NCBI RefSeq assembly: GCF_963678975.1
Contig: NC_089272.1
Coordinates: 8,161,858 to 8,225,857, forward strand
From: Dysidea avara
Taxonomy: Eukaryota > Porifera > Demospongiae > Dictyoceratida > Dysideidae
DNA: 64,000 nucleotides
Direction of reading: 5' to 3'
Positions 19,555 through 63,903 of this stretch are shown here, piece by piece; the first letter of the stretch is position 1, and every line of letters starts with the position of its first letter. The notes under the pieces are model-generated. The model searched no databases. It saw only the letters and a list, made by a program, of their open reading frames with translations, and was not told where the DNA came from. A program made the translations under genes and the position numbers.

Positions 19555-19564
19555 ACAATATTTG

Positions 19565-19647
19565 AGACATCAAAGATTCAGATGCTGGAACATACACTTT
19601 AGAGGTGCAAGGCAGAAAAGGCTACAGTAAACCTGTCAGGCTTTGCG
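19565..19647 (+). pseudogene. Ig-like exon remnant of peroxidase (3' part)
   Basis: Encodes DAGTYTLEVQGRKGYSKPVR, the end of an Ig-like domain (D.G.Y pattern), then a GT donor at 19648 (GTAAGAG). The exon's beginning, with signal peptide and first Ig strands, is missing here but present in the right arm at 63588-63903. The reading frame joins correctly to the linker exon at 19819 (LCV-LPSDTEVDPRT). The gene on this arm therefore lacks its start; the left boundary of the duplication cuts it. Confidence 0.65.
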
Positions 19648-19818
19648 GTAAGAGCTTCATGTTCCATGTATACCTAAGTATATATACATTATAATGTTAT
19701 ACACATTCTTTCTACAAGTTAATCACTGTACAGAACAATGATACATATAGGCCATATAAGTATAAGTGACTATATGCCTAATCATTTAATTAATGTGCTT
19801 ACTTACTTTTATTTTCAG

Positions 19819-19854
19819 TTCTTCCTTCAGACACTGAAGTTGATCCTAGAACAG
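19819..19854 (+). pseudogene. 36-nt linker exon of peroxidase copy
   Basis: A TATTTTCAG acceptor, 36 nt encoding LPSDTEVDPRT, then donor GTACGG. The identical exon structure occurs at 23441-23476, 58427-58462 and 62606-62641, always about 200-950 bp after an Ig-like exon, which supports a real splice unit. Confidence 0.65.
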
Positions 19855-19995
19855 GTACGGCACACTCCATGTGCAACTGTAAAAATATGCTCCTGTATGT
19901 GTGAGTATACTGACAAACAGATAATAATACAGTTGTAGAGGCCGTCTGCCTGTGTGCATGTACAGGTATATGTATGCCATTGCCTGCATGTGTAT

Positions 19996-20044
19996 TTGTA
20001 TAGTGTGTGTGTGTAGTGTGTATGTGTGTGCGTGTGTGTGTGTA
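19996..20044. repeat. Imperfect (TG)n microsatellite
   Basis: Interrupted GT/TG repeat. The matching site in the right arm (62139-62188) is an expanded, nearly pure (CA)n tract of about 50 bp. Confidence 0.8.
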
Positions 20045-20333
20045 GCAGGGACTGAACAGTATTAATGGGGAGCTGGTGTTAAACTAGGGTAGCAGCTTAC
20101 CAGCTGTTTGTATTAATTAGTAGTTAACACAAAAAAGTTTTCTCAAATCGTGAGTAGATTTTGGTCTGGTGTCACCTTACTTTGTATGTTGGAGTGTAAA
20201 GAACACTGTGAGAGACCTCAAAGTTAGCAGTAATAATAAAAATATTAATGTACTGTAGCTGTGTGTGGTAAATTCTATGCACACTGTAAGATTTAATAAT
20301 GAGATTTAGAGCCTTAATTATATTCATCTATAG

Positions 20334-22296
20334 ATCGTGTACATATGGCATATCAAGAAATTTTTCTATGGATAGCAAATGAAGAAGACTCAATCACCTT
20401 CCAGACCTTCTTTGAGTACTGCTACCTCTTCATTTACTATAAGAAGAAGGCTACACCCACTAGGAAGAATGGCAGGATTACACAGCACAGCCAGAACAAC
20501 ATTTGAACTTGACGTTTTTGGCACAGCAGATGTCCATGAAATACCAGAATAAGGAGATCTGTTAGACTTCGCTCAATGTGTGAACACTCCAGCAGTACCC
20601 AATTGTTCAGTAACAGACAAATTCTACTCAATTGATGGAATATGCAATGACATTGAATATCCACATAGAGCAGCTGCCAATACTGCCTTCAAACATCTTC
20701 AACCAGTTGAGTATGAAGATGGCATCTCTCTTCCTGTGGGATATGACCAGCAAGTGAATGGTGACCCTTTTGCAGGTCCATGGCCTAGTGCAAGAAGTGT
20801 TAGTGTTGCAGTTATTAGAGACTTACCTATGCAAAGCACAGCGCTTAGCCATCTTGTCATGACGTGGGGCCAATTTATTGATCAAGATTTGGACTTGTTT
20901 GCTGAATCTGAGTCTGAAGTGTGTGAGGAGACCTGTGATATAGAAGAATATAATCAGATATGTTATCCCATTAAAGTTCACCACAAGATTCGGTATTTGG
21001 TAGAAGGGGTCCAAACAGAGGAGAGTGCCTGCCTCTAACTAGGTCAGTTGGAACACGTGACAGTAAACATTTTGACAGATCAATCAGATAACACACTTTT
21101 TAGATAGTTCCATGGTGTATGGATCCACTCAGGAGGTAGCTGGCAGACTTCGACTATTTTCTGGTGGTCTATTAAAACAGGGTGGAGTAACTGGTACACT
21201 GAAACGTAACCTTCCATTTGAATCTCAAGCAGATAGTGAAGCTTCTGATAGTGGTGTACCACATTTTGATGCTGGTGATGTTAGGGTTAATGAGAATGTT
21301 CCTTTAACAATTATGCACACTATATGGCTAAGTCAACACAATCTCATTGTAACAGAATTAGCTAAACTCAATCCTTGCTGGGATGATGACAGGCTTTATC
21401 AAGAAGGTCATAAAGTTGTTGGAGCCATGATACAAATCATTACCTACAAGGAATTCCTTCCACTAATTTTTGGAGAGGATGGCTACAATACATTTATTGG
21501 ATCCTATCCTGGCTATTCTCCTAATACTGATGTCACTATACCAAACTCTTTTGCTATTGCAGCATTTAGGTTTGGGCATTCTTTGATCAGACCAGAGTTC
21601 ACTCATCTTGACAAGGACAATAAACCTTTAGACATTGGACCACTCTCATTACATGATTCCTTCTTTAACCCTTTGCAATATTTTATTAGTGGTGGGACTG
21701 ATCCTATATTACGTGGTCTCATGCAAGATAGGTCAAAAGAAGTTGACGAATTTCTCACCATGGTACTAACCGAGCAACTGTTTGCACCCACCAGTACAGG
21801 TCTTGGACGAGATCTAGCATCTCGCAATACACAACGTGGTCGTGAGCATGGACTACCATCCTATAGGAGCTTTCAGGAATACTGTTATAACATTTATGAA
21901 ATTCCATCAACATTTCACAGCCAAGGTGTTGAAGGGAGATTAAGAAGACTCTATGGTATCACTGGATTTACAAATGGTATAGATTCATTTGCTGGAGGAT
22001 TGGCTGAAGAAAGAATGAGTGGGTCTAATTGAGGTCCTACATTTGCATGCATCATTGGAAAGACATTTGCTGATATTCGTAGTGGAGACCGATTCTATTG
22101 GGAGAACCCAGATGACAATGTATTCACTGAAAGCCAGCGAAATACACTGAGTAACATTAGACTGTCTAAAGTGATCTGTGATAATGCTGATGACATTACT
22201 ACCATCATCCCTAAAGCATTTGAGACCGGACAAGAAGAACAAAGCTGTGATAGTCTACCAAGCTTAGAGTTAGGTCATTGGAGAGATACGTGCTAA
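20334..22296 (+). pseudogene. Animal haem peroxidase-like, left copy
   Basis: Peroxidasin/thyroid-peroxidase-type catalytic domain, an extracellular haem enzyme that uses H2O2. Landmarks in order: NTAFKHLQPVEYEDG, PSARSVS, MTWGQFIDQDLDL (about 20862), SMVYGSTQEVAGRLR (21109 on), a long open stretch 21112-22032 with AFRFGHSLI (proximal His codon 21577) and TQRGREHGLPSYRSFQEYC (21828 on), and C-terminal LPSLELGHWRDTC ending at 22296. Disablements: stop TAA near 20550 after HEIPE, a one-base loss near 20973 that shifts frame through the CxPIKV region, a ~12-bp loss near 21088, and stop TGA at 22030. The distal His of the WGQF.DHD motif is Gln (codon 20883). The 5' part (20334-20520) has competing frames. 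The upstream Ig and linker exons lie at 19565 and 19819. Confidence 0.85.
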
Positions 22297-22862
22297 TTAG
22301 ATTAACTCATTGTGACATTTTAGAGTGTGATTATACTGTTTAGACACATTAATAGAGTTGTAAAGTATTTGCATGATGACAATAATTAAGTTGCGTATAT
22401 ATGTAAAACTGCATTCTAGTTCCTCTGAGTATAACACAGAGTAATACAGGCACAGCACCCAAAGTAGGCGATTATACAGTGCATATTGTTTATGACTTGC
22501 TTTGGTAGAATCCATAGTATATAGCTAAAGGAGCAAGGGGTAGGTAGTAAATGTATAGCTATATACGTAGGTGCCTCCTGTACAGGCTAAATAAAACCAA
22601 GCCTATGGATCTGATTCAGAACCTTTCTCTGCATTCAGCCACAGCCTAAACTTAAACACGTTAATTTTAATTCTTGCCATCTTATATGGAATTATCCTTC
22701 TATGCTATAATTAGATGTGTGCTGATTACATCACATCCTGTACCATATATAGTATGGCCTATAATACCTGGACTTGTCAAAGAGAAAGTTCACTGACTGC
22801 TGTGGTTCTAGAGTGCCAATTTGAGGTGTGCAGCAAACTGAACATAAAAAGTTACTGAAAAT
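22297..22862. other. Non-coding between peroxidase and second Ig exon
   Basis: No gene seen. It ends with the 5' leader of the following exon (CTGCTGTGGTTCTAGAGTGC near 22797), which is shared with the leaders before 59025 and 63903. Confidence 0.4.
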
Positions 22863-23182
22863 GTGAAGCTACTCTACCGGTATGTACTAGGGATAATTGG
22901 CAGTGGTGTAATTGCAACTAGTGACTGTACTGGTGAGGAGGATTCAGCTGTTGTTACCAGAGGACATCCTTTCTTTCTGAACTTTGACTATGATGGTCCT
23001 AGAACAGCAGTCAACTACTCATTCAACAAGGATAGTGTGGCCATTGATGGAGACAATGTCCAAGTTTTCTTAGATATGGACACAATCGTTTCCCTAGAGA
23101 TCAAAGATTCAGATGCTGGAACATACACTTTAAAAGCACATGCAAGGCAGTAGCCTCTACAGAAAATCTGTCAGGCTTTGTG
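22863..23182 (+). pseudogene. Second Ig-like first exon (left arm)
   Basis: Begins MKLLYRYVLGIIGSGVIATS, a signal peptide, then an Ig-like segment RGHPFFLNFDYDGPRTAVNY ... DSDAGTYTLKAHARQ. The two Ig cysteines are absent (LNF and TYTL replace the usual C positions). A TAG at 23151 follows ARQ, before the GT donor at 23183 (GTAAGG). The right-arm copy (59025-58721) has the same TAG, so the lesion precedes the duplication or this unit ends here as a secreted Ig-only peptide. The linker exon at 23441-23476 follows, but no peroxidase body does: the next gene is the GPCR. Confidence 0.6.
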
Positions 23183-23440
23183 GTAAGGGCTACATGTACA
23201 TCTGTAGCAAGTCCATGTTACATGCCTATGTATATATATTTTATATAATGTTATACATTCTTTCCACAAGTTAATGACTATATGTATATGTACTAAGTTT
23301 GTATATGTATATGCCTAATATCAAGAGTAAACTCTTGTTAATATTCATAGCTACGTACCATGATGAGAGTAGCTCACAGAGTCACTTTATGTTAATGTTT
23401 ATTTTATTGTGACAGACTACTTGCTTTTATTTATTTGCAG

Positions 23441-23476
23441 TTCTCCCTTCAGTCACTGAAGTTGATCCAAGGACAG
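23441..23476 (+). pseudogene. 36-nt linker exon, second unit (left arm)
   Basis: TTATTTGCAG acceptor, 36 nt encoding LPSVTEVDPRT, donor GTACAC. Orphaned: no peroxidase exon follows before the GPCR at 24699. Confidence 0.55.
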
Positions 23477-23833
23477 GTACACAATCCCCTGTGAAACTGC
23501 AAAATATGCACCTTGAATGTATTTATGTGCATGAGTACGAACAGATAATTATGAATGTATATAGAGGCTATGGTGCATGCATCAATAATCATCTGTATGT
23601 ATTGTAATTATGTTAAACTTGTTTCCTGGGAATATACCAGCTGTGCTGACTGCCTAGTATAATAAATAAATATAGATGTGGTTGTGCAGTAGCAGAGGAA
23701 ATATATAGTTGATGTGAGAGGGGGTTACAAAGTGGTCAGTGGTTTGATTCTCACCGTAGCATTTTTTTGTCTTTTACTGTGGGAACACATTTCTGTGAAG
23801 CACTTTGATGCCTATTAGAGTACTTTGTTCTAC

Positions 23834-24008
23834 TAAATATTTCGAGGGGTACAATTTTCGAGGTTGAGCAATATTGCTAAAAGTAAAATTTGCGGATTTG
23901 CAAACACTCCCAAAATGTATTAGACTATATGAAGGTCTAAATATTGCAAGGCTATGATTTCCACTAGTAACCCCCAATTAGCAAAAATCTTCCTCCTCGA
24001 AATATTTA
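23834..24008. mobile_element. 175-bp MITE with AATATTTCGAGG ends
   Basis: TAAATATTTCGAGG (23834) and CCTCGAAATATTTA (to 24008) are perfect inverted ends that include a likely TA target. An orthologous copy of the same length sits at 57903-58077, so it inserted before the arm duplication. A diverged relative lies near 11105-11296. Confidence 0.85.
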
Positions 24009-24698
24009 GGCTATACACAGTAGAATATATTGATCCAGGCTTTTATCACATTATGAAGATTGGTAGCAACATGTCACAAATAAGATAACATCACTGTACT
24101 GCTGGATGAGACATGTCGCAGCACAAATGACATGCTGCCAAAATTTTTTGGAGGGGCCTCCTTAAAACTTTAATTTGCATGGTATAATAAATATGAAATT
24201 TCACTCCAACAATATTATTTGAGATAGCATTTCTGGTCAAGTTTCAAACTAAAAGCATTTCTCTGATTTCTCTCAGTTTAGATCATCAAATTTGGAAACA
24301 TTAATGTGGCTGTGTGTGATAGACCCCTTATTGGAGGAAATGTAGATCCCAGGCTGTGTGGCTCCTTTCTGCACTTGCCTAAAATGAAGAATGTAAGCTT
24401 CCTAGAAATCAAGCCACCATTGGTTTGGATTGTTTGTGTTTCATATAGAATTTTGGTTCCCAGGTTCTGTGCAGTCTTTGATCAAACATTCCAACTGCAT
24501 GTACATACACACTACGTACTTGATTGGTATGAGCTGTGTTAACTATCACATTCTATGTGTTACAATAATAAAGGCTTCTCATTGTAAATAAATAACAGTA
24601 CTTACTGATAATGCGTCAGTTTAGTGTGAGTTTTAGTAGTATGTATGTGTATAGTGTGAAAGGTATCTGCAGTATACAACAGTCAACAGAAGAGAGAG
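24009..24698. other. Non-coding, GPCR upstream region
   Basis: No gene recognised. A 78-codon frame at 24306 is not conserved as an open frame from the same start in the right arm. The stretch just before 24699 would hold the GPCR promoter and leader, but no motif can be defended. Confidence 0.4.
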
Positions 24699-25721
24699 AT
24701 GAGTGGAATGGATTACTCTGGGTCAGGAACCAACCAGGAGATAGATGATCAAGGCTCTATTCTTCCAGGATATGTTCCCTACCTATCCTTGGTGTTCAAG
24801 ATGATCGCTACAACAGTCATCTCACTACTGTCTGGCTGGGTGGTCTACACTATCAAAACCACAAGAAGTTTACACAAGCCTCATAATATATTTGTTGCCA
24901 ACCTACTGGTATCTGGTATGATAACTTCACTATCAGACTGTTTGATTTCCAGTACAATGATAATCAGCTTTGCACTTGGTGTGGAGTCTTTTATTGGATG
25001 CTTTGTATTGAAGTTTCGACTGCTCCCTTTTTATGTCAACAATATGTCATTCGTGATAATAGCAGCTGATAAGGTGGTAGCAATAAGATTTCCTTTCAAG
25101 CACAAAAGAATGATGACATCTCGTGTTGTAGCTGTTGTTATCAGTGGAGCATGGCTGATAGCCATCATACCTACTGCTTACACGATCACCTTTGATGTGG
25201 ATGGTGTCACTGATGTACCACAATACGGTGCCTGCTTGTTTGAGGGAAATGCCTTTGTTGAAGCAGTGGTCATTTTCATAATTCCAATGGTAGTGGCATC
25301 TATCCTTACCATACTCCTCAATGTTCGGTTAGCTATAAAAGCTTTTCAGGTTCACAGGCTAATTGAAAGGGAAACCAGATTAGCAGGAGTCAACAGCCAG
25401 TCTACAAATCTTTCTGTTTTGAGGAAGAAACTATGCACCATCAAGCGAAACAGGAAACCAATCATAACGCTATTTGTGGTCATCTTTGGTAGTGTATCCA
25501 TCCCTCTGCTGTTTACACCATTTCTCATTTTGGGAAGATTTCTGGTTGGCTCACAGGTGTATCTAGAGTTTACAGAGTATGTCATGGTTCCAAACATTGG
25601 GTTTGTAATAAGATTTTTCCAACCACTCGTATACGGGTTGTATTTCAAACAGGTTCGTGAGCAGATGATGAGGTGTTTGAAGAGACTGAACAAAGTCAAC
25701 TCAGTTGCCCCACAACCATGA
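24699..25721 (+). CDS. Rhodopsin-like (class A) GPCR, 340 aa
   Basis: A single-exon seven-helix receptor in the plasma membrane; ligand unknown. Helices read in order: TM1 about residues 27-52 (LSLVFKMIATTVISLLSGWV), TM2 about 62-84 with an NLL core, TM3 about 100-128 beginning at Cys100, then DKVVAIRFPF in place of the E/DRY motif, TM4 about 143-163 (VVAVVISGAWLIAIIP), a second-loop Cys in YGACLF that can pair with the TM3 Cys, TM5 about 187-213 (FIIPMV), a basic third loop (KKLCTIKRNRK), TM6 about 257-280, and TM7 about 292-314 with QPLVYGLYF replacing NPxxY. The length is typical for the class. The start chosen is the first in-frame Met (MSGMDYSG). The mirror copy at 56197-57219 has the same length but two stops, so this is the only intact copy here. 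Confidence 0.85.
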   Translation: MSGMDYSGSGTNQEIDDQGSILPGYVPYLSLVFKMIATTVISLLSGWVVYTIKTTRSLHKPHNIFVANLLVSGMITSLSDCLISSTMIISFALGVESFIGCFVLKFRLLPFYVNNMSFVIIAADKVVAIRFPFKHKRMMTSRVVAVVISGAWLIAIIPTAYTITFDVDGVTDVPQYGACLFEGNAFVEAVVIFIIPMVVASILTILLNVRLAIKAFQVHRLIERETRLAGVNSQSTNLSVLRKKLCTIKRNRKPIITLFVVIFGSVSIPLLFTPFLILGRFLVGSQVYLEFTEYVMVPNIGFVIRFFQPLVYGLYFKQVREQMMRCLKRLNKVNSVAPQP

Positions 25722-27279
25722 AGGGCTGGATGACACAACATATTATATCCTATTATGAACTTGTGCTGTGTGTTTTAACTATTGCTTCATAATTACAATG
25801 TACATTAATTTTATTATCTGAAGTGTATCGCTGTTAGGTTCTTAAATGTAAAAAAAGCATGTATAAAGAAACCTGAGTAGTGAAAGTTGGTATATAGTTG
25901 AAAGTTGGTAAATCCTGTTGAGTTCCAAAATGATGGGAAGCATGCAGGTACTCCTGAACCTTCAGAATTGCTGTAGCTAAGCTAAGACAACTGTAGTAAT
26001 ATTTGTATGCTTATATGTTTACCACACAGGTGTAAACAGTGTGCATGGTTCTAGTATTACTTGTCCTATTAGGGTTAATAATGTGGTAAGAAGAAAAGCA
26101 GAAAAGACAATGCTGAAACAGCTACCGAGTGAGAGAATAAAGGTGCGACATGAAAGATAGTGAGAAAAACTAGCATGAAAAAAACACATACAGTTATCAA
26201 GTTGTTGAAAGATAATAAAGTTGCAACCAAAAGTTTTGGCAAAAGGTAAAAAACCAAAAAAATCCACAATACAGCTGGGATTTGATCTTGCACTCTATAT
26301 ACCAGTTTCAACCTTCACACTCTACCACATCGACTACATTAACTTGTGGTTACAGTGTCTCTAAAAATTGTTTGCATGCTTATAATAAATTGAATGGAAT
26401 ATGTATTTATTTGTGGTTTTCGTAGGACAATTCGAGCAAGTTTTGCTCTACACCGGACCCTTGCATTTAACACACTGCAAATGACAAACAGTAGTAGTTA
26501 GGAGCTTCATTTAAAAGTGAGACGATTCTTAGAGAATGAGCGCTTTGTTTAGCACAAAACATGCTTCAATATGTGCATCATCAGCTGGCAAGAAAATTGT
26601 TGAATGCCAAAGGAATGCAGACAGACAGACAGACGGATAGCTTTTCAGCTTTGTAGATATAGATTGCATGTAACTTGAAAGCAGTGTAAGCTATGGACCT
26701 ACTGACAGCAACAATGGAATAAAAGCATTGATCTGGAACCTTAAGTCTGTGGATTTTGAATTGTGTAAGTGATACAGAGAAAATATAGATACACACTACA
26801 TGGACCAAATACTGTAATAGTTGAAGAGATTATTTGTTATGACAAGAACAAATTTAGCCAATATTTTGGTGTAGTTTTGCATTTATAGTTTTACAGAACC
26901 TATTGTAACAACACAAACATCATAAATTTTGACCTGGTTATTACCACTGTGGTGATGGTAACAAACACCTACACCCAGCAGCTTCCATTTTATCCATAGA
27001 ATGTTACTGGGAACTATTGCACTGTACCATGCATGCACACAGAACATCCAACAAAATTGAATATGGCTTCACCTGAAATATGATACAAAAAGGTATAGTT
27101 TTGAATTACTGTACGTTACATGTACAGGTATACATGCAGAAACACATTTAGCACAAGTTGATACACAATGTATCATCTCTGGCACCATGACACATTCGGA
27201 TAGAGTAGACAATGATAACTCATGAACCTGTACATTGATATACTCCACAAATTCACTGGAATTGTGAACACAACAATAC
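25722..27279. other. Non-coding; tRNA-like relic and (ACAG)n
   Basis: Holds the 73-nt tRNA-like element (26268-26340) and a short (ACAG)n tract at about 26619-26634. Hydrophobic minus-strand open frames at 26019-26311 are low-complexity T-rich reads and are not supported. Confidence 0.45.
26268..26340 (-). ncRNA. tRNA-like relic (pseudo-tRNA or SINE head)
   Basis: Read on the minus strand, the ends AATGTAG and CTGTATT can form a 7-bp acceptor stem with two G-U pairs, spaced exactly 73 nt. An A-box-like TGGTAGAGTG and a B-box-like GATCAAATC lie at suitable positions, and a T7 run follows. Anticodon and T stems do not fold well, so it is not a working tRNA. The same 73 nt are at 55569-55641. 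Confidence 0.35.
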
Positions 27280-27365
27280 CTTGTTGGGTCATCTTCGAAC
27301 AGTGGTGTAAGAGGAATATTGTGGCCATATTTTGGTCCCTGTGAAGCTGTGTAGCTAATGGTGAT
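27280..27365 (-). pseudogene. Unrecognised two-exon gene piece, exon b (left)
   Basis: A CCTTTTCAG acceptor precedes 86 nt encoding ITISYTASQGPKYGHNIPLT and PLFEDDPTR, then donor GTATTG. The phase fits the exon at 27420-27520 (ends on a full codon). The FEDD.PT ending and alternating hydrophobics loosely recall a fibronectin type III strand, but I cannot assign a family. The right-arm counterpart is 54544-54629. Confidence 0.45.
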
Positions 27366-27419
27366 CTGAAAAGGAACCAGCAAAGTATTAATATTGTTCA
27401 GGATAGTTACACACTGACG

Positions 27420-27520
27420 TATTTTAATAATTTCTGTTAAGTGGTGGCCTTGGCTTTGTAGTTATCATATTGGTTAAACAAGAGATCACAATTGGTAACG
27501 TCGTAGCCCAGTAAAATACC
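27420..27520 (-). pseudogene. Unrecognised gene piece, exon a (left, has stop)
   Basis: GCTACTGCAG acceptor then 101 nt encoding LLGYDVTNCDLLFNQYDNYK and AKATT, followed by TAA where the right arm has AAA; the presumed donor is GTCAGTG. The intron to the next exon would be 54 nt, very short. One substitution thus separates a stopped left copy from an open right copy. Confidence 0.45.
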
Positions 27521-27791
27521 TGCAGTAGCATATTACAAAGAAAAGTAAGTATGAGTATACCAATATACAGTATGCATACAAGTATTAGGAATTTTGAGTA
27601 GGGATCATAGAAACAAGTGTAGGAATTCTACAAATTATAGTAGTGTATGAATCATTTAAAGTGCTTAAACAAGGAAGAACATCACATAAAGTACAAATTC
27701 TCAATCTCTTTACATGAGCCCCTACTGTACAATCTAGCGTAGCGATAATAGATGATCAGGTGATTAAAAGTCTTAATTATAGTCTGTTTGC

Positions 27792-28082
27792 GTTCACCTG
27801 AGCCCTCATTTCTTGTTAATAATTCTTGTTACAAGGGCCAGCTGCTCAAACATTTAGTAGCACTGTGAAGCACTTCAAACGCTGGAACTGTTTATCAAAA
27901 AAGCTCTTTGATACGGACAAGAACAAGTGAGTTATGAGGCTTTAAAAATATCCCATACATTTAGTATGGATGATTCAGATGTTTACAATATGAAAACATG
28001 CTTGTTCCAGTACAAATCCATTGGGAGTGAACACATGTTCACCTCTTTCATATTACTATGTTTGGCGGGGGCTCAGGTGAAC
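27792..28082. mobile_element. ~291-bp MITE with GTTCACCTGAGCCC ends
   Basis: GTTCACCTGAGCCC (27792) and GGGCTCAGGTGAAC (to 28082) are perfect 14-bp TIRs. Several internal copies of GTTCACCT recur. The orthologous copy is at 53780-54116. It is AT-rich and non-coding. Confidence 0.75.
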
Positions 28083-28413
28083 ACGTACTAACTATAGTAG
28101 AGCAGCTAAGCGAAAAATTGTTCACTTTTTGATAAAAGCTCCAAACTTGGTAAATATTTGCTTAATTTGTACAGTGCCATAAAATTACCAATCACATCAC
28201 AAACAAAGGAGACAACCAATAAACCAACACAAAATGCGTGTGGAAGCCATAAAAGCACTAACAGTAAATAACTAAAAGGACTTGGAATTAGTGTCCTTTG
28301 TACTGTTTAATGCAAGATAGATTAGTGGCTGTGCAAAGACAGTCGTTAAGAATCAGTTACAGTGTATGCAGACAAAGAAGATGGAAAAACCTGTTGTGGT
28401 AGGTGGAAGTGAT

Positions 28414-28676
28414 GATGTGAAATCCAAGGTGGCGGCCAAGAAATGGCTGTGATGGTAGGCTAATGGTGAAAATTTTAATAAAGACAATTCAGGTGAATTT
28501 TGTGCCAAGACCAAGCGGCACCAAAATTCACCTGAATTGTCGTTATTAAAATTTTTACTATTAACCTACCATCACAGCCATATCTTGGCCGCCACCTTGG
28601 ATTTCACATCTTTTTTCACCATAGCATTTTTGAGGGCTGCACTCTTTTTTTACAGCTTGGCTGTTTTGGATTAGAT
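28414..28676. mobile_element. Family A foldback, left half truncated (left arm)
   Basis: Family A copy: inverted arms around about 28500 carry GGTGGCGGCCAAGAAATGGC and TTCACCTGAATTGTC, and the right end is CAGCTTGGCTGTTTTGGATT. The left outer end is lost here but present in the right-arm copy (53186-53448). Other copies: 44287-44606 (complete), 35030-35173, and pieces at 29275-29345 and 52514-52592. Confidence 0.75.
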
Positions 28677-29478
28677 TATGTCAACCCCTACTTCCTTCTG
28701 AAATTTTTAATTTTTAAATAGCTAGTTTCAGTAGCATCCAGCCAAATGAAGTGGTGTACAGCATCAATTACTGACAGTTGACGTCATTTATCATCCACTC
28801 TTTAACTTTTGTACATCAAATATTGTCTCCAGTTTGAGGTATTTTGGCATTCCCTCACAATTCAAACTAAATATTGCCAATAGTACAAAATAGTCTACCA
28901 GTACTAATTGTAATTTCACCAAAATTTCAAGGAAGTCTTATGCAAGATTTTCGAAGTATTTAATACTTTTTTAAACAGCACTACCATTTCTTTAAGTATG
29001 TTACAAAAGTCAGCACAGCTACTTTGCTTCCTGTCGTACAGCGATGCAACCAAAGACGTACATGCTCTTCATTAATAGCCTACAACTTCTATCCACTGTG
29101 TATGTGGTTCGCTCCTGAGCTGTGTAACATATCTTCAACACTTCACAGCATGTGACAAACCTCTACACCTCTAAAAACCATAGTCAATGGTGAAATAAAA
29201 ACACTCTTCCAGTTTACCCTTGACTTAGTATTCAGAGTTATTTCCTCCTAGGTACTGTATCTCTACATTGTTCTTTTTTCACCATAGCCTTTTTGAGGGC
29301 CGCACTCTTTTTTTACAGCTTGGCTGTTTTGGATTAGATTTCACTTCTTTTTGCATTTGTATACCCCTATGGCCAGCTTTGGGTCTTTTTTAACCTATCT
29401 TTTTTTACCACAGGAAGAAGAAAAGATGAAGCAGATGTTAAATACTTTAAATATTTCTGATTTTATCAGTAAATGTAC

Positions 29479-29479
<1 letters not shown>
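28677..29479. other. Non-coding; family A tail repeated at 29275
   Basis: No gene. 29275-29345 repeats the family A right end, and the following stretch to (AT)n at 29480-29512 (GAAGAAGAAAAGATGAAG, TTTATCAGTAAATGTACAAA) recurs at 44660-44740 and 52389-52460, so it is part of a longer dispersed element. Confidence 0.5.
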
Positions 29480-29512
<33 letters not shown>

Positions 29513-30722: not shown

Positions 30723-33700
30723 ATGGTGAGGGAGCTCAGCATGGCAGGTGAGACTGACACCACGCTTCACGAATGGTTGAGTGTTGTTTTGAAACGAGGG
30801 TATATTTGTGCTATTTAATCACTGACACTGATGGTGCAGGTCTCTTTGAAACATTGAATGTTGGGTGGATTACTGACAGCCAGGATATTGGAAGATCTTG
30901 CTTACATAAACTTGCTCAGTGTCTATGGTACCTTGATTCACACCACCAGAAATTTGTAGATAGAGGAATGAAGCTGCCAGTGAGATTTAGCTCTTTTCAA
31001 GGATACAATGATTATAAAAGAAAGAAGGAAAGGGAACCCAGATTATCAGCTAGAGAATTGAACCATCATGTTGAATTATTGTCAGAAATGCTAATGCAGC
31101 CTTGGTTTTTCCACGCTTGTTTTAAAAGTATTAGGAATGATGTATCAGAGCTTACAGATGTAATGCATCAATATGCAACCTATCTTCTTGAGAAAAAGGA
31201 AAAGGTCCAAGATAACCATTCTGTGAATTCTACAAAAGATGCTGAAAGTAGTGCCACAATCGCAACTTTACCTGCCAAACATGGACTGATTTTAGAAAGG
31301 TACAAGTCAGTTTACCAACATCTTGATGTGCTTGATCTGTATCAGCCACTCTTTCTAAATGAGATTGCTCCAGAAGAACGATTTGTGCGCAGGAAGTGGC
31401 TATCAGAATTGCAGCTTCCATTCCCAGTAATGTTGTATAAATATGCGTATGGAAATAACCTTGGCACATCAGTTTTTGCTTGGAAAATTCCATGTGATAT
31501 TCCAGTGGACCAAACAGAAGTCAGCCGTATATTTTCAAAGCTTACTGAGAAGCAGTCTTTTTACTCTTCCAGAGCAATGCGTCATGATTTTTTTGAAAAG
31601 TATTGTCGATTTGCCAAGGTTCCCAAAATGGTTTTGCATAATATTTATCGTAGTTTACTGGAGGATCAGTCCAGTGTATCATGCACTGCAGAAGGTCAAG
31701 TAGATGAATGCCTGGCGCAAGCTATTATCAATATGAATGACGCAGACATAGTCTTAGATTTACAAAGCACTAATGGATCAGCTAAATCAACCAAGTTTGA
31801 CAAGTTTTGGGAAGAGTTGCAGTTATACTTTGATGAAACCATCTTGGCTGTTGATGAGAGGAGGCACAGTGAAATGTTACATATGCCATTTGCTATATCT
31901 CTCCGTCACCTAAGGGAAATGATCATCACTCATTTACTGGAGAAATTTCCGAATAATACTCCTCCTGTTCCATCATTAGAATGGATTCGCCTTCAATTTT
32001 GGCCTGCAAACCCATATACTGAAACAGCAATGCGATATACTGGGCAGTTCAAGGTGAAGTTTGGAGTACAGATTCATCAGCTTCGTAAAAGCCATCCTGA
32101 TTCTCATTATGTAAGTGCTTTCCTTCAATATGCTCGTCATTTTGTTGTTCACTTTCGTGATTATGTTACATATGTGTCTGTTGATGATAAAGCTATTGTG
32201 CCTGTTGGAGAGCCAGACTGTCCTATATCGACTGGAGTTAGAGGCCACAATCGATCATTAGTGCCTGTAGATGGACCTACCCTGTTAGCTTTAGACCATG
32301 ATTTTCATGTTCATGGCATTGTGCCATCTGTGGCATTCTTTGTTGACATTCCAGAAAATCCTAAAGATAGTTTCTTCAATGGACAGGCATTTGTCACTAA
32401 CAAAGACAAAGTTACTGAGCCTTCCAGTCCTTTAAGACATGCTACGGAGACATGTCATTTGATACAAACTCATTTCAGTGATTGTGGTGTCATATCCAAA
32501 AACCCTATCCTGGTCATTGTTAGTGATGGAGGGCCTGATCATCGTGTGACATATGGTACTGTAAAGGTATCTGCTGTTGCTCTTTTTCGTGCCCTGGATT
32601 AGGACATGTTGATTTGTCTACGAACATGTCCTTATCAATCATGGCAAAATATTGCAGGACGGATTATGTCTACTCTAAATTTAGCTTTACAAAATGTGTC
32701 ATTGGCTAGGAATTCAATGGATTCAGAGTTTGAAAAATTGGTTCATAACAAAAACTCACTTTCAGAAGTACGGGAAGCTATAGAGAAAAGCCCAAATCTT
32801 GGTGTTGCTTTGAAAGACTCAATGTCAGCTCCACTTATTAGTGTTGGGCAAAGATTCCAAGCAATGGAAGTAAAAGGGAAAAAGGTAATAGTTGGGAAAC
32901 CAGCTACGACAGAAGAGCAGAATGCTTTATTTGAAAGAGTAGTACAGCTTGATTCTTCCATCTGCAAAGACAAACTGGGTCAGAAAGACTTAGCAAAAGC
33001 AAAAGATTTACAGGAGTTCTTAGTAACTCATGCCCACTCATCCCAATACATGTTTCAAGTGAAAAAATGTAGCAATCCTGACTGTAAATACTGCCAAGAA
33101 CATCCTGTCAGGATCCCTGAAAGAGTTTTTTCTAACCTTTCTTTTCTACCTATGCCACGTTTAGACTCCACTAAGGAACACTATAAGAAATTTGATGCTG
33201 TATATGGACAGACTCTCTCTGAAGAAGATCGTCCTTCATTGTCACAAAATTTTTTGAGTGAAGGCTCAAAGATTGACAAAGGAAGAAAAGATATATTAAT
33301 AAGTGCGAAGGTTAGAGGGACAATAGTTTGTTCAGAGTGTTATAAGCCTCGGTGTATTTATTCCAAAGCTAGACTTTCAAAATCTGAATCTGTGATATTG
33401 TTGCAAGTACAAGATTCAAGGTTGTACACTTGTGGCTCTTCGCTGTTTGCCTTTGGATCTAGTTTGGCTGATTCTGTCATTGTTAAAGAGGCACTGACTT
33501 GCAACGCTCCAATGGAAAGTCAGTATTACAGCTCAGTATTAGTGAAGTTTGAGCCGGTTTGTTATTACTGTGGTCTAGGGGGTGATGGAAGTTTGGTAGA
33601 AGATGAAGAAATTATAATTAAGGGGTGATGGAAGTTTGGTAGAAGATGAAGAAATTATAACTAGGGGGTGATGGAAGTTTGGTAGAAGATGAAGAAATTA

Positions 33701-35391: not shown

Positions 35392-35727
35392 CACTGTGAA
35401 AAAGGTAGGATATAAGACGGTATTTCCAGTGGCTTATTGAATACAAATAAGCCTTAATATAAACCCTGTATTATACTCATGTTATACTTTAGTATAATGT
35501 ATACTATACTATTACATGTATGGTTTCAGTTTAATTACCACAATACTTGGAATAGCTTATATCTGATATAATGCCCACACTATACTATCACATATAAGGT
35601 TTCAGTATGTTTAACACATTTACTAAAGCCTTATAGGGATTGTTAGTATAATACAGGTTATACCAAGCTTTTTTGTATTCAATAAGCCACTGGAAATACC
35701 ATCTTATATCCCTCTTTTTTCACAGTG
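35392..35727. mobile_element. 336-bp foldback MITE
   Basis: CACTGTGAAAAA.GG and TATTTCCAGTGGCTTATTGA pair with the complement at about 35665-35727; arms are about 60 bp with a few mismatches. Its right end abuts the satellite array directly. Confidence 0.8.
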
Positions 35728-40743: not shown

Positions 40744-40744
40744 A

Positions 40745-40849: not shown

Positions 40850-40850
40850 G

Positions 40851-49585: not shown

Positions 49586-50935
49586 TGATTATGATTATGA
49601 TTATGATTAGATACTGGAAAGACAGCACTCAGTGCTGGTTACATCCAGGAGGGGGGGGGACCCTCAAAACAAAAAGGGGGTTAATTACAACAAATCTAGT
49701 CCAAAAATACAATTATTAAACTGTTCTAGTGACTCTGTATCGATGATGTGATTAGGGAGGTTATTCCATTGCTTGATAGTTCCTGGAAAGTAACTCTGTT
49801 GGTAAGCAAGTGTTCTAGTTGGAGGAATTATATATCTGTATTGGTGATGCAATCTAGTTGGATATGAAGTAGGCTTGAAATACTCAGGGAGCTGGATAGA
49901 TGGCAAAGCGTGATGTAATACTCTATATAGTAAGTTCAAACGATCAATACATCTTCTGCTCTGTAGGCTCTTCCAATGCAGTTGATCCAACAGGTAAGTG
50001 ACACTACTCATTGGATTGTAATCCGATGCTACCCATCTTGCAGCACGACGTTGTACCTTCTCTAAAGTATTAATTAAGTATAGCTGGTGAGGGTCCCAGA
50101 CACAACTAGCATATTCCAGCAGAGGACGTATTGATGTTAAATAGGCTGTTATCTTAACTTCTTTGGAGCATTTACTTATATTACGTTTAAGAAAGTTGAG
50201 ACTTTTAGTTGCTTTGCCGCAAAGATGATCGATGTGGTGGGACCAAGACATTGATTGGTGGAATATGACCCCTAGATATGGATGCTGACTCTTCAGTTCC
50301 AGAGCTTTATTGTCAATGCTGTAGGTGGTGAGCATGGGAGTTTTGCTTCTTGAACAACGTAGAAAAACACACTTTTCAACATTTAGTTTCATTTGCCAAG
50401 TTTTAGCCCAGTGGAAGACTTTATTTAGATCTTGTTGTAGGATACTATTGTCTTCTTCTGAATCAATAATTCTGTAAATAATACAGTCATCGGCAAAGAG
50501 ACGAATCGAGGAGTTGATATTTGTAGATATGTCATTGATGTAAAGTAGGAACATTAATGGCCCAAGTACAGTGCCTTGTGGGACACCTGACTTTACTGGA
50601 ACAAACCTGGAAGTTACATTATTTAGCACTACTCTTTGTTTGCGTTGTGTTAGCCAAGCCTTAATCCATTGATGAAGGTCTCCTTGTATTCCATAGTGTG
50701 ATAGTTTCTGTAATAATCGTTTATGAGGAACTGAGTCAAAAGCTTTTGAGAAATCTAATAAAATTAGATCTATTTGTTTCTGTTGGTCCATTACCTTTAA
50801 GATTTCCTCTGTTAGCATTACTAGTTGGGATTGACATGAGTACTTAGGCCTAAAACCGTGTTGGCAATTATTGAGGATATTATTTTGGTCTACATGATTC
50901 ATAATTGAGTGAGAAACATGATGCAAACCCTACTT
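49586..50935 (-). pseudogene. Non-LTR retrotransposon RT domain, 413-codon ORF
   Basis: Open from 50926 to 49685: QHGFRPKYSCQSQL, then LILLDFSKAFDSVPHKRLLQ, then SGVPQGTVLGPLMF, FADDCIIY (catalytic box with F for Y), HPYLGVIFHQSMSWSHHI, RPLLEYASCVWDPHQ, KVQRRAARWV, and the C-terminal YFPGTIKQWNNLP. This is the RT plus C-terminal domain of a CR1/L2/Jockey-like LINE. The endonuclease and first RT motifs are cut away near 50935, so it is 5'-truncated although the frame is intact. On its strand the 3' UTR has CAGCACTGAGTGCTG and ends in (TAATCA)n (49586-49609), matching the tail type of the copy at 17156. Confidence 0.9.
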
Positions 50936-54490: not shown

Positions 54491-54543
54491 GTCAGTGTGT
54501 AACTATCCTATACAATATTAATACTTTGCTGGTTCCTTTTCAG

Positions 54544-56196: not shown

Positions 56197-57219
56197 TCAT
56201 GGTTGTGGGGCAACTGAGTTGACTTTGTTCAGTCTCTTCAAACACCTCATCATCTGCTCACGAACTTGTTTGAAATACAACCCGTATACGAGTGGTTGGA
56301 AAAATCTTATTACAAACCCAATGTTTGGAACCATGACATACTCTGTAAACTCTAGATACACCTGTGAGCCAACCAGAAATCTTCCCAAAATGAGAAATGG
56401 TGTAAACAGCAGAGGGATGGATACACTACCCAAGATGACCACAAATAGCGTTATGATTGGTTTCCTGTTTCGCTTGATGGTGCATAGTTTCTTCCTCAAA
56501 ACAGAAAGATTTGTAGACTGGCTGTTGACTCCTGCTAATCTGGTTTCCCTTTCGATTAGCCTGTGAACCTGAAAAGCTTTTATTGCTAACCGAACATTGA
56601 GGAGTATGGTAAGGATAGATGCCACTACCATTGGAATTATGAAAATGACCACTGCTTCAACAAAGGCATTTCCCTCAAACAAGCAGGCACCTTATTGTGG
56701 TACATCAGTGACACCATCCACATCAAAGATGATCGTGTAAGCAGTAGGTATGATGGCTATCAGCCATGCTCCACTGATAACAGCAGCTACAACACGAGAT
56801 GTCATCATTCTTTTGTGCTTGAAAGGAAATCTTATTGCTACCACCTTATCAGCTGCTATTATCACGAATGACATATTGTTGACATAAAAAGGGAGCAGTC
56901 GAAACTTCAATACAAAGCATCCAATAAAAGACTCCACACCAAGTGCAAAGCTGACGATCATTGTACTGGAAATCAAGCAGTCTGATAGTGAAGTTATCAT
57001 ACCAGATACCAGCAGGTTGGCAACAAATATATTATGAGGCTTGTGTAAACTTCTTGTGGTTTTGATAGTGTAGACCACCCAGCCAGACAGTAGTAAGATG
57101 ACTGTTGTAGCGATCGTCTTGAACACCAAGGATAGGTAAGGAACATATCCTGGAAGAACAGAACCTTGATCATCTATCTCCTGGTTGGTTCCTGACCCAG
57201 ACTAATCCATTCCACTCAT
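56197..57219 (-). pseudogene. GPCR, right copy, two nonsense codons
   Basis: The same 340-codon frame as 24699-25721 without net length change. Codon 6 is TAG (57204-57202) and a codon after TM4, in the second extracellular loop, is TAA (56694-56692); both replace the TAC tyrosine codons of the left copy (MDYSG and PQYGAC). Elsewhere only scattered substitutions are seen, for example ISLL to ILLL in TM1 and IFGS to ILGS in TM6. A truncated protein could in principle start at an internal Met (57129), but it would stop after TM4. Recent loss is inferred from the otherwise intact frame. Confidence 0.9.
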
Positions 57220-58462: not shown

Positions 58463-58720
58463 CTGCAAATAAATAAAAGCAAGTAGTCTGTCACAATAAA
58501 ATAAACATTAACATAAAGTGACTCTGTGAGCTACTCTCATCATGGTACGTAGCTATGAATATTAACAAGAGTTTACTCTTGTTATTAGGCATATACATAT
58601 ACAAACTTAGTACATATACATATAGTCATTAACTTGTGGAAAGAATGTATAACATTATATAAAATATATATACATAGGCATGTAACATGGACTTGCTACA
58701 GATGTACATGTAGCCCTTAC

Positions 58721-59025
58721 CACAAAGTCTGACAGATTTTCTGTAGAGGCTACTGCCTTGCATGTGCTTTTAAAGTGTATGTTCCAGCATCTGAATCTTT
58801 GATCTCTAGGGAAAAGATTGTGTCCATATCTAAGAAAACTTGGACATTGTCTCCATCAATGGCCACACTATCCTTGTTGAATGAGTAGTTGACTGCTGTT
58901 CTAGGACAATCATAGTCAAAGTTCAGAAAGAAAGGATGTCCTCTGGTAACAACAGCTGAATCCTCCTCACCAGTACAGTCACTAGTTCCAATTATCCCTA
59001 GTACATACCGGTAGAGTAGCTTCAC
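58721..59025 (-). pseudogene. Second Ig-like first exon (right arm)
   Basis: Starts MKLLYRYVLGIIGTSDCTGE: relative to the left copy 15 bp (SGVIA) are deleted at the signal-peptide end. The Ig-like part is almost identical (DCPRT for DGPRT, IFSLE for IVSLE). It shares the TAG after ARQ with the left copy, then donor GTAAGG. Followed by the orphan linker exon at 58427. Confidence 0.6.
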
Positions 59026-59589
59026 ATTTTCAGTAACTTTTTATGTTCAGTTTGCTGCACACCTCAAATTGGCACTCTAGAACCACAGCAGTCAGTGAAC
59101 TTTCTCTTTGACAAGTCCAGGTATTATAGGCCATACTATATATGGTACAGGATGTGATGTAATCAGCACACATCTAATTGTAGCATAGAAGGATAATTCC
59201 ATATAAGATGGCAAGAATTAAAATTAACGTGTTTAAGTTTAGGCTGCGGCTGAATGCAGAGAAAGGTTCTGAATCAGATCCGTAGGCTTGGTTTTATTTA
59301 GTCTGTACAGGAGGCACCTACGTATATAGCTATACATTTTACTACCTACCCCTTGCTCCTTTAGCTATATATTATGGATTCTACCAAAGCAAGTCATAAA
59401 CAATATGCACTGTATAATCGCCTACTTTGGGTGCTGTGCCTGTATTACTCTGTGTTATACTCAGAGGAACTAGAATGCAGTTTTACATATATACGCAACT
59501 TAATTGTCATCATGCAAATACTTTACAACTCTATTAATGTGTCTAAACAGCATAATCACACTCTAAAATGTCACAATGAGTTAATCTAA
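59026..59589. other. Non-coding, mirror of 22297-22862
   Basis: No gene seen. Confidence 0.4.
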
Positions 59590-61833
59590 TTAGCACGTAT
59601 CTCTCCAATGACCTAACTCTAAGCTTGGTAGACTATCACAGCTTTGTTCTTCTTGTCCGGTCTCAAATGCTTTAGGGATGATGGTAGTAATGTCATCAGC
59701 ATTATCACAGATCACTTTAGACAGTGTAATGTTACTCAGTGTATTACACTGGCTTTTCAGTGAATACATTTTCATCTGGGTTTTCCCAATAGAATCAGTC
59801 TCCATTATGAATATTAGCAGATGTCTTTCCAATGATGCATGCAAATGTAGGAGCTAAATTAGACCCGATCATTCTTTCTTCAGCCAATCCTCCAGCAAAT
59901 AGATCAATGCCATTTCTAAATCTAGTGATACTATAAAGTCTTCTTAATCTCCCTTCAACACCTTGGCTGTGAAATCTCGATGGAATTTCATAAATGTTAT
60001 AACAGTATTCCTGAAAGCTCCTATAGGATGGTTGTCCATGCTCACGACCACGTTGTAAATTGCTAGATCTTGCCCAAGACATGTACTGGTGGGTGCAAAC
60101 AGTTGCTCGGTTAGTACCATGGTGAGAAATTCGTCAACTTCTTTTGACTTATCTTGCATGGGACCACATAATATAGGATCAGTCCCACCACTAATAAAAT
60201 ATTGCAAAGGGTTAAAGAAGGAATCACGTAATGAGAGTGCTCCAATGTCTAAAGGTTTATTATCCTTGTCAAGACGAGTGAACTCTGGTCTGATCTAAAT
60301 GCTGGTCTGGTCTGGTCTGATCTGAACTCTGGCCCAAACCTAAATGCTGCAGTAGCAAAAGAGTTTGGTATAGTGACATCAGTATTAGGAGAATAGCCAG
60401 GATAGGATCTAATAAATGTATTGTAGCCATCCTCTCCAAAAATTAGTGGAAGGAATTCCTTGTAGGTAATGATTTGTATCATGGCTCCAACAATTTTACG
60501 ACCTTCTTGATAAAGCCTCTCATCATCCCAGCAAGGATTGAGTTTAGCTATTTCTGTTACAATGACATTGTGTTGTCTTAGCCATATAGTGTGCATGACT
60601 GTTAGAGCAATGTTCTCATTAACCCTAACATCACCACCTACAAAATGTGGTACACCACTATCAGAAGTTTCACTATCAGCTTGAGATTACAATGGAAGGT
60701 TACCTTTCAAAGTACCAGTTACTCCACCCTGTTTAAACAGCAGACCAGGAAATAGTCGAAGTCTGTCAGCTACTTGCTGGGTGGATCCATAGACCATGGA
60801 ACCATCTAAAAAGTTTTTTATCTGATTGATCTGTTGTCTTGCCATGTCAAAATGTTTACTTTCACATGTTCCAACAGACCTAGTTAGAGGCAGGCACTCT
60901 CCTTTGTTTGGACCCCTTCTACCAAATACTGGATCTCGTGGTGAAACTTTAATGGGATAACATATCTGATTATATTATTCTATATCACAGATCTCCTCAC
61001 ACGTTTCAGTCTCAAATTCAGTAAACAAATCCAAATCGTGATCAATAAATTGGCCCCATGTCATGACAAGACAGCTAAGCACTGTGCTTTGCAAGGGTAA
61101 GTCTCTAATAACTGCAGCACTAACACTTCTTGCACTAGGCCATGGAGGGTCACCATTCACTTGCTGGTCATATCCCACAGGAAGAGAGATGCCATCTTCA
61201 TATTCAGCTGGTTGAAGACGTTTGAAGGCAGTATTGGCAGCTGCTCTATGTGGATATTCAACGTTATTGCATATTCCATCAATTGAGCGGAATTTGTCTG
61301 TTACTGAGCAATTGGGTGCCGCTGGAGTGTTCACACATTGGGCAAAGTCTAACAGTAAATCAACTCCTTCTTCTGGTATTTCATGGACATCTGCTGAGCC
61401 AAAAATGTCTGCCAAAATCAGTTCAAATGTTGTTCTGGCTGAGCTGTGTAATCTTGCCATTCTTCCTAGTTGGTGTAGCCTTCTTCTTATAATAAATGAA
61501 GAGGTAGCAGTACTCAAAGAAGGTCTGGAAAGTGTTTGAGTCTTCTTCATTTTGTCCATAGAAAAAATTCTTGATATGTGACCGAATTTGCGAAAAGGGG
61601 TCCTCCACATACCCGATTCTATGAACTCAGAAGTCCATAACTCAGTGCTCAAGAAGCACATTAACCTGAAACTTTCTCCATCCACTAAGCCATGTTGATG
61701 CTCACTTGTGACTACATTTTAGGTCAATAGCCTTTTCCAATCAGCAGTTATGAGTTGTCAAAGTTGATAAATTGGATGTGTGTGGAAGACCCTTTTTCGT
61801 AAATCCGGTCACATATTGCCATTCTTACACGAT
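59590..61833 (-). pseudogene. Animal haem peroxidase-like, right copy
   Basis: Same enzyme type as the left copy. It keeps MTWGQFIDHDLDL with the distal His (codon 61040-61038), the CYPIKV...DPVFG block, CLPLTRSVGTC, QQINQIKNFLDGSMVYGS and QRGREHGQPSYRSFQEYC. Lesions: a 237-bp MITE inserted at 61577, stop TAA just after CDIE near 60975, stop TAA near 60687, replacement of the proximal-His segment by a small tandem duplication of CTGGTCTGATCT-like units (60284-60340, reading FGPEF where the left copy has FGHSL), a deletion before QRGREHG near 60060, and a frameshift near 59820. The C-terminus LPSLELGHWRDTC ends at 59590. Upstream exons are at 62606-62641 and 63588-63903. Confidence 0.85.
61577..61813. 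mobile_element. 237-bp MITE, TGTGACC family, inside peroxidase exon
   Basis: TGTGACCGAATTTGCGAAAA and the complement of TTTTTCGTAAATCCGGTCACA flank it, with TA duplicated outside. The left arm at about 20350 has the uninterrupted site (GGCATATCAAG), so it inserted after the duplication. Confidence 0.9.
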
Positions 61834-62141
61834 CTATAGATGAGAATAATTAAGGCTCTAAATATCATTATTAAATCTTACAGTGTGCAGACACTTTACC
61901 GCACATACAGTACATTTATAATACTGCTACATTTATTAACTTCAAGATCTCTGTTCTTTACACTCCATGGCGTCCCCATTAACATGTAAAATAAGGTCAC
62001 ATCAGACCAAAATCTACTCACAATTTGAGATTTGAGAAACCCCTTTGTGTTAACTACCCATTAATACAAACTACTGGGGAGCTACTTCCCTATGTAGTTT
62101 AACACTAGCTCCCCATTAATACTGCTTAGTCCCTGCTGCAT

Positions 62142-62193
<52 letters not shown>

Positions 62194-62334
62194 GTACTGT
62201 ACAAACACACAAGCAGGCACTGACATACATATACCTGTACATGCACACAGGCAGACTATATCTACAGCCGTATTATTATCTGTTTGTCAGTATACTTACA
62301 CATACATATTATACGGAGCATATTTGTGACCGGG
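61834..62334. other. Intron-like region with (CA)n at 62139-62188
   Basis: Mirror of the left-arm intron. The CA tract is about 24 pure units, longer and purer than the left-arm tract at 19996-20044. Confidence 0.6.
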
Positions 62335-62574
62335 CCTGCAAAAATAGGGCATGTGGGCACATGCTTTTTGCCTACTTTTTCAAACTGTCATCACTCATAA
62401 CATTTTGTATCATTATGCTATGGCATTGCAATTTTGAGCATTTAGTAAGCATTTAATTGGCATCATGATGCAAGTTACAGAATGGAAATATACTTTTCCA
62501 GTGCTGAGATATGACCTGTAGAGTGATGGGGTGTAGTTTGTGCCCACATGCCCTGTTTCGCAGGCCCAGTCACA
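62335..62574. mobile_element. 240-bp MITE, TGTGACC family, right arm only
   Basis: TGTGACCGGGCCTGCAAAAA and the complement of TTTCGCAGGCCCAGTCACA are the ends. The left-arm counterpart (near 19886) has no element, so this is a private insertion next to the linker exon. Confidence 0.85.
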
Positions 62575-62605
62575 TTTTTACAGTTGCACAAGGAGTGTAC
62601 CATAC

Positions 62606-62641
62606 CTGTTCTAGGATCAACTTCAGTGTCTGAAGGAAGAA
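62606..62641 (-). pseudogene. 36-nt linker exon of peroxidase (right arm)
   Basis: ATTGCAG acceptor, LPSDTEVDPRT, donor GTATGG. Part of the right-arm peroxidase pseudogene. Confidence 0.6.
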
Positions 62642-62673
62642 CTGCAATACAAGTAGGCACATTAAATGATTAG

Positions 62674-63466
62674 CAGGGGCGTAGGGAGGGAGGGTTCCGG
62701 AACCCCCCTGTAAAATTTAGACTTCTGCAAACAGGATCCTAACACACCATTTAGTGTGGCAGGACAAAATGAGTGAGCAATATAGTGTAATGGCACAGCA
62801 CAACAATTGATAAAACTTAAATTCATCTCTCAGGGAAGGATTTACAGAGGTAACATGAGCCCTCTTCAAAACTTGTTAAAAAGATCGATATACTCTAATA
62901 GAGCAGTCAGGTATATACTCTAATAGAGCAGTCAGGTATACTCTAATAGAACATGCATTTAAATATCCATGTCCATATGAAGTTTTTCAGACATTCCAAC
63001 ATTAAATGCAAAATTTAGCATGACCTTATACTGCTATAGCTTTGGTGTGCAGTGTTTAAAGATATAGAGCTCCAGTAATTTATCACTTGTGTTATGCAAA
63101 ATGAATTCATGCTATGCATATTTGTATAGTTACATTGTTTTGATTGTCATTTGTATCAGTGGATTCATGGCTCCTATACCACAGTGAGATATAACCATCA
63201 CTTACAGATTACTATATGTGTCTCTATGTGTTATGCTGTCTGTTTCCACTAGGTGACTTTATCTAGTACTACCTTCATCCCAGGGGCACTTAATGCATCA
63301 TAATTAATGTACTTTTTGCATAAAATATAGCAATTTGCTGAGTTTTGATTTATTAAAATATTGAAAGTCTCTCAGCGGCTGGGGGCTGTGCCCCCAGACC
63401 CCTGCTTCCAGTAACTCAATGCTGGTGCTGGAACCCCCCTTCAAAAAAATCCTGGCTATGCCCCTG
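62674..63466. mobile_element. 793-bp nonautonomous element, 5-bp target duplication
   Basis: Ends CAGGGGCGTAG and CTATGCCCCTG; ATTAG flanks both sides (62669-62673 and 63467-63471), and the left arm shows the empty site with a single ATTAG. It carries three tandem copies of the CTCTAATAGAGCAGTCAGG motif (62890-62955) and GGGGGCTGTGCCCCCAGACC near the right end. It belongs with the element at 17464 by end and target length. Confidence 0.9.
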
Positions 63467-63587
63467 ATTAGACATATAGTCACCTATACATATCATTGTT
63501 CTGTACAGTGATTAACTTGTAGAAAGAATGTGTGTAACATTATAATGCATATACACTTAGGTATACATGGAACATGGAGCCCTCACC

Positions 63588-63903
63588 ACAAAACCTGACA
63601 GATTTTCTGTAGCCCTTTCTGCCTTGCACCCCTAAAAGTGTATGTTCCAGCATCTGAATGTTTGATGTTTAGGAAAAAGATCCTATCCATATCTAAGAAA
63701 ACTTGGACTTTGTCTCCATCAATGGCCACACCATCCTTGCTGAATGTGTAGCTGACTGCTGTTCTAGGACCATCATAGTCGAAGTTCAGAAAGAAAGGAT
63801 GTCCTTTAGTAGCAACAGATGAATCCTCCTCACCAGTATAGTCATTAGTTGCCATTGTACCACTGCCAAATATCCCTAGTATAAACCAGTGGAGTATCTT
63901 CAT
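63588..63903 (-). pseudogene. Ig-like first exon of right-arm peroxidase
   Basis: MKILHWFILGIFGSGTMATN is a signal peptide. The Ig-like segment follows: KGHPFFLNFDYDGPRTAVSY, FSKDGVAIDGDKVQVFLDMD, HSDAGTYTF. The frame then differs from the left remnant: an extra base in TTTTAGGGG (near 63632) shifts GTYTLEVQGRKG into GTYTFRGARQKG, so the join to the linker exon is out of frame. Donor GTGAGG follows at 63587. The start is the only signal-peptide-like Met; the 5' leader is shared with 22863 and 59025. The canonical Ig cysteines are absent. Confidence 0.65.

Follow-up and report, generated by a model that had tools for sequence, protein, structure and literature searches.

Segmental duplications are blocks of at least 1 kb that share at least 90% identity. 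Where they are local and of low copy number, as in expanded families of G protein-coupled receptors (GPCRs), high-identity blocks copy a gene, its neighbours and its repeats together, and some members decay while others stay open. The large palindromes of mammalian sex chromosomes (PMC8981503) consist of two inverted arms around a spacer and keep an arm identity above 99% through gene conversion. Haplotypic (false) duplications arise in heterozygous genomes (PMC7203741, PMC9516828) and show as a short gap-bounded contig beside a close relative. Here we analyse a stretch of 64,000 nucleotides from the sponge Dysidea avara (the window; forward strand of NC_089272.1, here C1, at C1:8161858-8225857; positions without this prefix are those of the window), in which an initial annotation had described a block holding a peroxidase and a GPCR gene as an inverted segmental duplication around a 23-kb spacer of mobile DNA. 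As assembled, this layout of two inverted arms around a spacer is that of the sex-chromosome palindromes. Our results point, with a probability of roughly three in four, to a different explanation: that the arms (A and B) and a further copy (C) are three copies of a local duplicated block, and that the layout in which A faces B comes from the placement of a contig. The locus looks like an ordinary small local segmental duplication, and nothing clear separates it from those of GPCR families; the peroxidase that accompanies the receptor is broken in A, B and C alike.

Comparison of the window with itself matched arm A (20349-29481, plus strand), which comprises a peroxidase pseudogene, an Ig-like exon, a GPCR gene and further non-coding sequence, in inverted orientation to arm B (61578-52392, minus strand) at 94.5% identity (9,273 columns, of which 284 are mismatches and 226 gaps); the identity rises to 96.9% once gap columns are dropped, and the match is far above chance expectation. 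Beyond it each arm has a degraded outer extension, the one of arm B (61817-63668, minus strand) being longer than its counterpart in arm A (19567-20350, plus strand). Two pieces of these extensions could be aligned (19567-19765 with 63668-63468 at 89.6% and 19883-20350 with 62325-61817 at 76.7%), and between 62325 and 63468 the pairwise listing held no arm A match of at least 150 columns. In A, the extension is what remains of the region where, in B, the upstream Ig-like exon lies. The limits first given for the inverted similarity, 19555 and 63670, were thus about right; the inner junctions placed at 29480 and 52390 fall inside contigs, at 29481 and 52392, and are so present in the assembly. 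The homology terminates within both contigs on either side of the arm, and at the inner limit a TA repeat adjoins it in A. By eye, the final stretch of A before 29481 resembles the sequence that starts after a run of 5,000 N at C1:8285408-8290407, so a dispersed repeat may end at this limit.

The third copy lies outside the window. In searches of the assembly (550.8 Mb in 108 scaffolds; 40 candidates scored per search) the query 22000-24000 returned A itself, B (97%) and C (98%). With 24300-27600 as query (40 of 722 candidates scored), three places reached at least 96%; a further 43 rows fell at 67-87%, almost all of them covering just the GPCR. Copy C occupies C1:8321940-8329094, 105.7 kb past B and in the same orientation as B, and matches A (20349-27542 against C1:8329094-8321940) at 94.9% and arm B at 95.9% over 8,022 columns. 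The duplication proposed initially is supported, but a picture with two arms leaves out one copy. The homology between B and C takes in, on B, C1:8216224-8224182, C1:8225322-8228548 and C1:8234087-8239931, and extends to C1:8239931 in B and C1:8339804 in C in pieces of 96-98%; substitutions in the flanking pieces amount to 1.36-1.67%, and more flank is common to B and C than to A and B. With 9.3 kb at 94.5% between A and B, and 8.0 kb at 95.9% plus the extra pieces between B and C, the locus holds a long high-identity block that is not just a transposon in more than one copy, as a segmental duplication does. This homology is interrupted by a 5.5-kb insertion in B that C lacks (C1:8228549-8234086, outside the window), with terminal inverted repeats of 182 bp and an apparent 10-bp target duplication; judged by eye, its open reading frame (ORF) looks RecQ-helicase-like.

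In two relatives of the peroxidase elsewhere on C1, D and E, the catalytic part is one open stretch (660 codons from C1:8642990 on and 659 codons from C1:7600410 on, respectively), whereas its frame is broken in all three copies of the block. The pseudogene of arm A (20349-22296, plus strand) contains in-frame stops and was assigned to the animal haem peroxidases on two open pieces (Pfam An_peroxidase, E 2.2e-23 and 3.2e-90), the longest having myeloperoxidase as its top PDB match (E 4e-57); that of arm B (59590-61718, minus strand) also contains in-frame stops and was assigned on one open piece (E 3.7e-43). Relative to D, copy A has frameshifting deletions of −1 and −13, copy B has frameshifts of +29, −7 and +1, and copy C has −4 and −7; the −7 deletion and an in-frame −9 deletion are common to B and C. 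The statement that exon lengths match between the arms is consequently misleading for the peroxidase part, which is uninterrupted in the relatives and frame-broken in both arms. The single-exon rhodopsin-type GPCR gene is open over 340 codons in copy A (24699-25721, plus strand; 7tm_1, E 1.6e-12; no stops) and in copy C, and has two in-frame stops in copy B (56197-57219, minus strand; C1:8219076-8218057).

Divergence among the copies changes along the block. In 20349-22289 substitutions were 6.66% for A-B, 6.19% for A-C and 2.77% for B-C; in 22290-23488 they were 0.93%, 0.42% and 1.19%; and in 23489-27600 they were 2.27%, 2.51% and 1.87%, all of these percentages being descriptive, as the zone limits were set after a 400-column profile had been viewed. 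Rooted with the intact relative D, the peroxidase part shows 45 derived sites shared by B and C against two shared by A and B and two by A and C; thus B and C are sisters in this part, and downstream they are not visibly so. Divergence drops steeply near 22290, which suggests exchange between copies; exchange would also explain why B and C group together in the peroxidase part only. The same pattern would follow if the peroxidase part of A had arisen earlier or had some other separate source. Some exchange is possible, and its clearest trace is between A and C rather than between A and B: the near-identical A-B patch is confined to 22290-23488, where A-C divergence is lower still. The longest A-C run comprised seven shared polymorphic sites (permutation p 0.011, uncorrected for the three pairs; p 0.49 for A-B and 0.29 for B-C), a weak test for gene conversion.

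These data bear on the proposal that the locus undergoes gene conversion in the manner of a palindrome, which we could not uphold. No homogenisation of arm with arm was found along A and B: their peroxidase parts are 6.66% apart and are disabled by different lesions. Compared with the sex-chromosome palindromes (PMC8981503), the locus differs in its lower arm identity, in the differing lesions, in having a third copy and in the gap within its spacer. In an improbable extension of the exchange idea, A would truly be inverted relative to B and C and the three copies would recombine with one another. Non-allelic exchange would then keep the stretch between the Ig-like exon and the GPCR, both included, similar (0.4-2.5% substitutions), the linked broken peroxidase would drift apart (up to 6.7%), and A/B or A/C inversions would segregate in the population.

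The arrangement of the arms was then considered in the light of the contig structure. Three runs of N occur in the 264 kb of C1 examined around the window: 200 at C1:8155122-8155321, 200 at C1:8202708-8202907 and the 5,000 mentioned above. The second is a scaffold gap at 40851-41050, in the middle of the 22,910-bp interval between the arms (29482-52391), and separates contig I, which carries arm A, from contig II, the next contig, which carries arm B. What had been taken for a sequenced 23-kb spacer is two contig ends across 200 N, a feature that the initial annotation does not mention; the opposite orientation of the arms in the scaffold stands, but the sequence between them is not continuous and depends on one scaffold join. 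The run of 5,000 N begins exactly 82,500 bases past this gap, and such round numbers suggest that it is not an assembly gap and hence that B and C would lie on one contig. Gaps of fixed 200-N length are found in Hi-C-scaffolded assemblies (PMC12134992, PMC12675260); orientation from Hi-C is hardest for short contigs (PMC7672694), and the Hi-C tool YaHS scores a pair of contigs in all four orientations and keeps the best (PMC9848053). From the fixed gap length we infer that scaffolding chose the orientation of A. Because contig I is only 47,386 bp long with a 200-N gap at each end, both the orientation of A and its distance to B come from scaffolding alone, and since a gap separates the arms their mirror-image arrangement is not established.

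The sequence of the contig ends gave this join no support. Contig I ends within a foldback (inverted-repeat) element (40727-40850), whose halves match closely in inverted orientation and which is about 18 bases shorter than a complete relative (L021, 2374-2515). With up to three mismatches allowed, the missing 18-base far end occurs in the window only at 40727-40744, the other end of the element itself, so the contig ends do not speak for the join. A comparison of contig with contig found no overlap across the join beyond repeats. Of the terminal 750 bases of contig I, the first 620 belong to a repeat that occurs on many scaffolds (40 of 3222 candidates scored) and so cannot place the contig.

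Two arrangements of contig I can be weighed on this evidence. Order and orientation in the assembly, the 94.5% match over 9.3 kb, and the fall in A-B and A-C divergence at about 22290, with the exchange it suggests, would fit a genuine inverted duplication, in which a spacer of mobile DNA lies between two opposed arms, A and B, that could recombine to invert or convert. The gap between the arms and the shortness of contig I count against this, as do the near-identical patch, which is strongest between A and C and not between A and B, the lesions, which differ between the arms, and the satellite arrays of the spacer, which are direct and not mirrored; we regard it as rather unlikely. Alternatively, contig I may have been flipped in the assembly, such that A, B and C all have one orientation and form a dispersed direct array. 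B and C are co-oriented, and turning the short contig I aligns A with them, but the contig-end sequence supports a flip no more than it supports the join, and D and E are on the plus strand like A as assembled; we consider this arrangement possible, though less likely than not. Both are completions of the three-copy explanation, with which their probabilities overlap.

Arm A could also be an unpurged alternative haplotype of B or C, kept as a separate contig; a short contig bounded by gaps, with a relative beside it, is what such a haplotype would be expected to leave. The matches of contig I to the examined stretches of contigs II and III consisted of the block and shorter repeat-like ones (those between the two satellite arrays were dropped from the listing), and came to only about 10 kb once dispersed repeats and satellites were set aside; against the 43 kb examined of contig 0 there was nothing of at least 250 columns. 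In the cleanest of three genome searches, which scored 40 of 166 candidates for 15600-17000 of contig I, the only full match was the query itself; the other 39 rows were partial, spanning 200-290 query bases at 74-83%, and the last 300 or so bases of this query are also dispersed repeat. No complete second copy turned up either with the queries 13400-16400 (40 of 2633 candidates scored) and 14200-16400 (40 of 1219), both of which were crowded by dispersed repeats. The contig comparison and the genome searches thus left the haplotig reading unsupported, as homology did not cover most of the contig, and the lesions differ between the copies. The signature is that of haplotypic duplications (PMC7203741, PMC9516828), but here the homology is not contig-wide. 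Arm A is probably a paralogue and not an unpurged allele, because the candidates scored included no complete second copy of a mostly single-copy stretch of its contig, and we consider the haplotype explanation very unlikely. The initial annotation had named arms on different haplotypes as the case that would count against it; with homology ending inside both contigs on both sides, and 15600-17000 without a further full copy among those candidates, that case is itself unlikely.

On the three-copy explanation, a block of about 9-10 kb in a neighbourhood of GPCR and Ig-peroxidase genes would have been copied by small segmental duplications, local to one scaffold, to give A, B and C. B and C would be closest in the peroxidase part and A more distant there, with some peroxidase lesions arising in A and others, separately, in the ancestor of B and C; the GPCR would have stayed open in A and C and lost its frame in B alone. 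Placing the 47-kb contig with A beside the contig with B across the 200-N gap would account for the mirror-like appearance and for the 23 kb between the arms. The three copies, the gap, the lesions and the divergence pattern are observed, whereas the order of duplication and some exchange downstream of 22290 are inferred. Several points weigh against this explanation. The assembled orientation of A may well be correct; relatives D and E are oriented as A is, so the orientation in this neighbourhood is mixed; and the derived sites shared in the GPCR (four for A-B, one for A-C and three for B-C, with the relative at C1:8344363 as outgroup) do not repeat the grouping of the peroxidase part.

The remaining genes of the block were examined for their relationships. 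The Ig-like exon lies 3′ of the peroxidase in arm A (22797-23282, plus strand) and has a matched counterpart in arm B (58621-59091, minus strand); its assignment is tentative, because the Ig_2 match (E 0.017) is under the curated cut-off. A second, more diverged exon of this kind lies 5′ of the arm B peroxidase (63504-63991, minus strand), with 75.9% and 78.5% identity to the arm copies and 70.8% protein identity. The exon is thus downstream of the peroxidase in the arms, with the second one upstream in B, and upstream in D and E. The top PDB match of the GPCR was a consensus olfactory receptor (E 5.9e-08). Its nonsynonymous and synonymous rates (dN/dS by NG86) were 0.0110/0.0491 for A-C, 0.0091/0.0338 for A-B and 0.0072/0.0403 for B-C, with 15-20 substitutions per pair, which suggests constraint.

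The interval between the arms, described initially as built from satellites and transposons, does contain two satellite arrays, two reverse-transcriptase ORFs and dispersed repeats. A 31/62-bp satellite forms an array in the contig I part (35725-37898, plus strand) and recurs in the contig II part (44766-48153, plus strand), in direct orientation to the first. Satellite and a common flank of about 500 bp occur as a unit at three places (35725-38726, 45935-49474 and, beside peroxidase relative E, C1:7603559-7605857) and may represent a mobile element with tandem repeats inside it. Reverse-transcriptase ORFs lie at 42564-43304 (plus strand; RVT_1, E 3.2e-17) and 49685-50929 (minus strand; RVT_1, E 2.3e-31). 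Two consecutive ORFs of 614 and 341 aa (30758-33628, plus strand) belong to a multi-copy element with copies at 82% and 81% on scaffold C3, and matched no Pfam family at its cut-off. Elsewhere on contig I there is a Fringe-like fragment (15617-16168, minus strand; Pfam Fringe, E 2.1e-08) and a repeat of about 1.2 kb (12937-14124). A search that scored 40 of 2633 candidates placed part of this repeat (13400-14124), at 99-100% identity, at 39 further sites spread over many scaffolds, and a (TAA)n run follows it; the repeat is very young and perhaps still mobile.

The locus offers a caution, in that what reads as a palindrome-like locus from sequence alone would here be a three-copy local duplication together with a scaffold join. 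If the exchange between copies is real, it would provide a small example of receptor copies that are kept alike while a linked gene decays.

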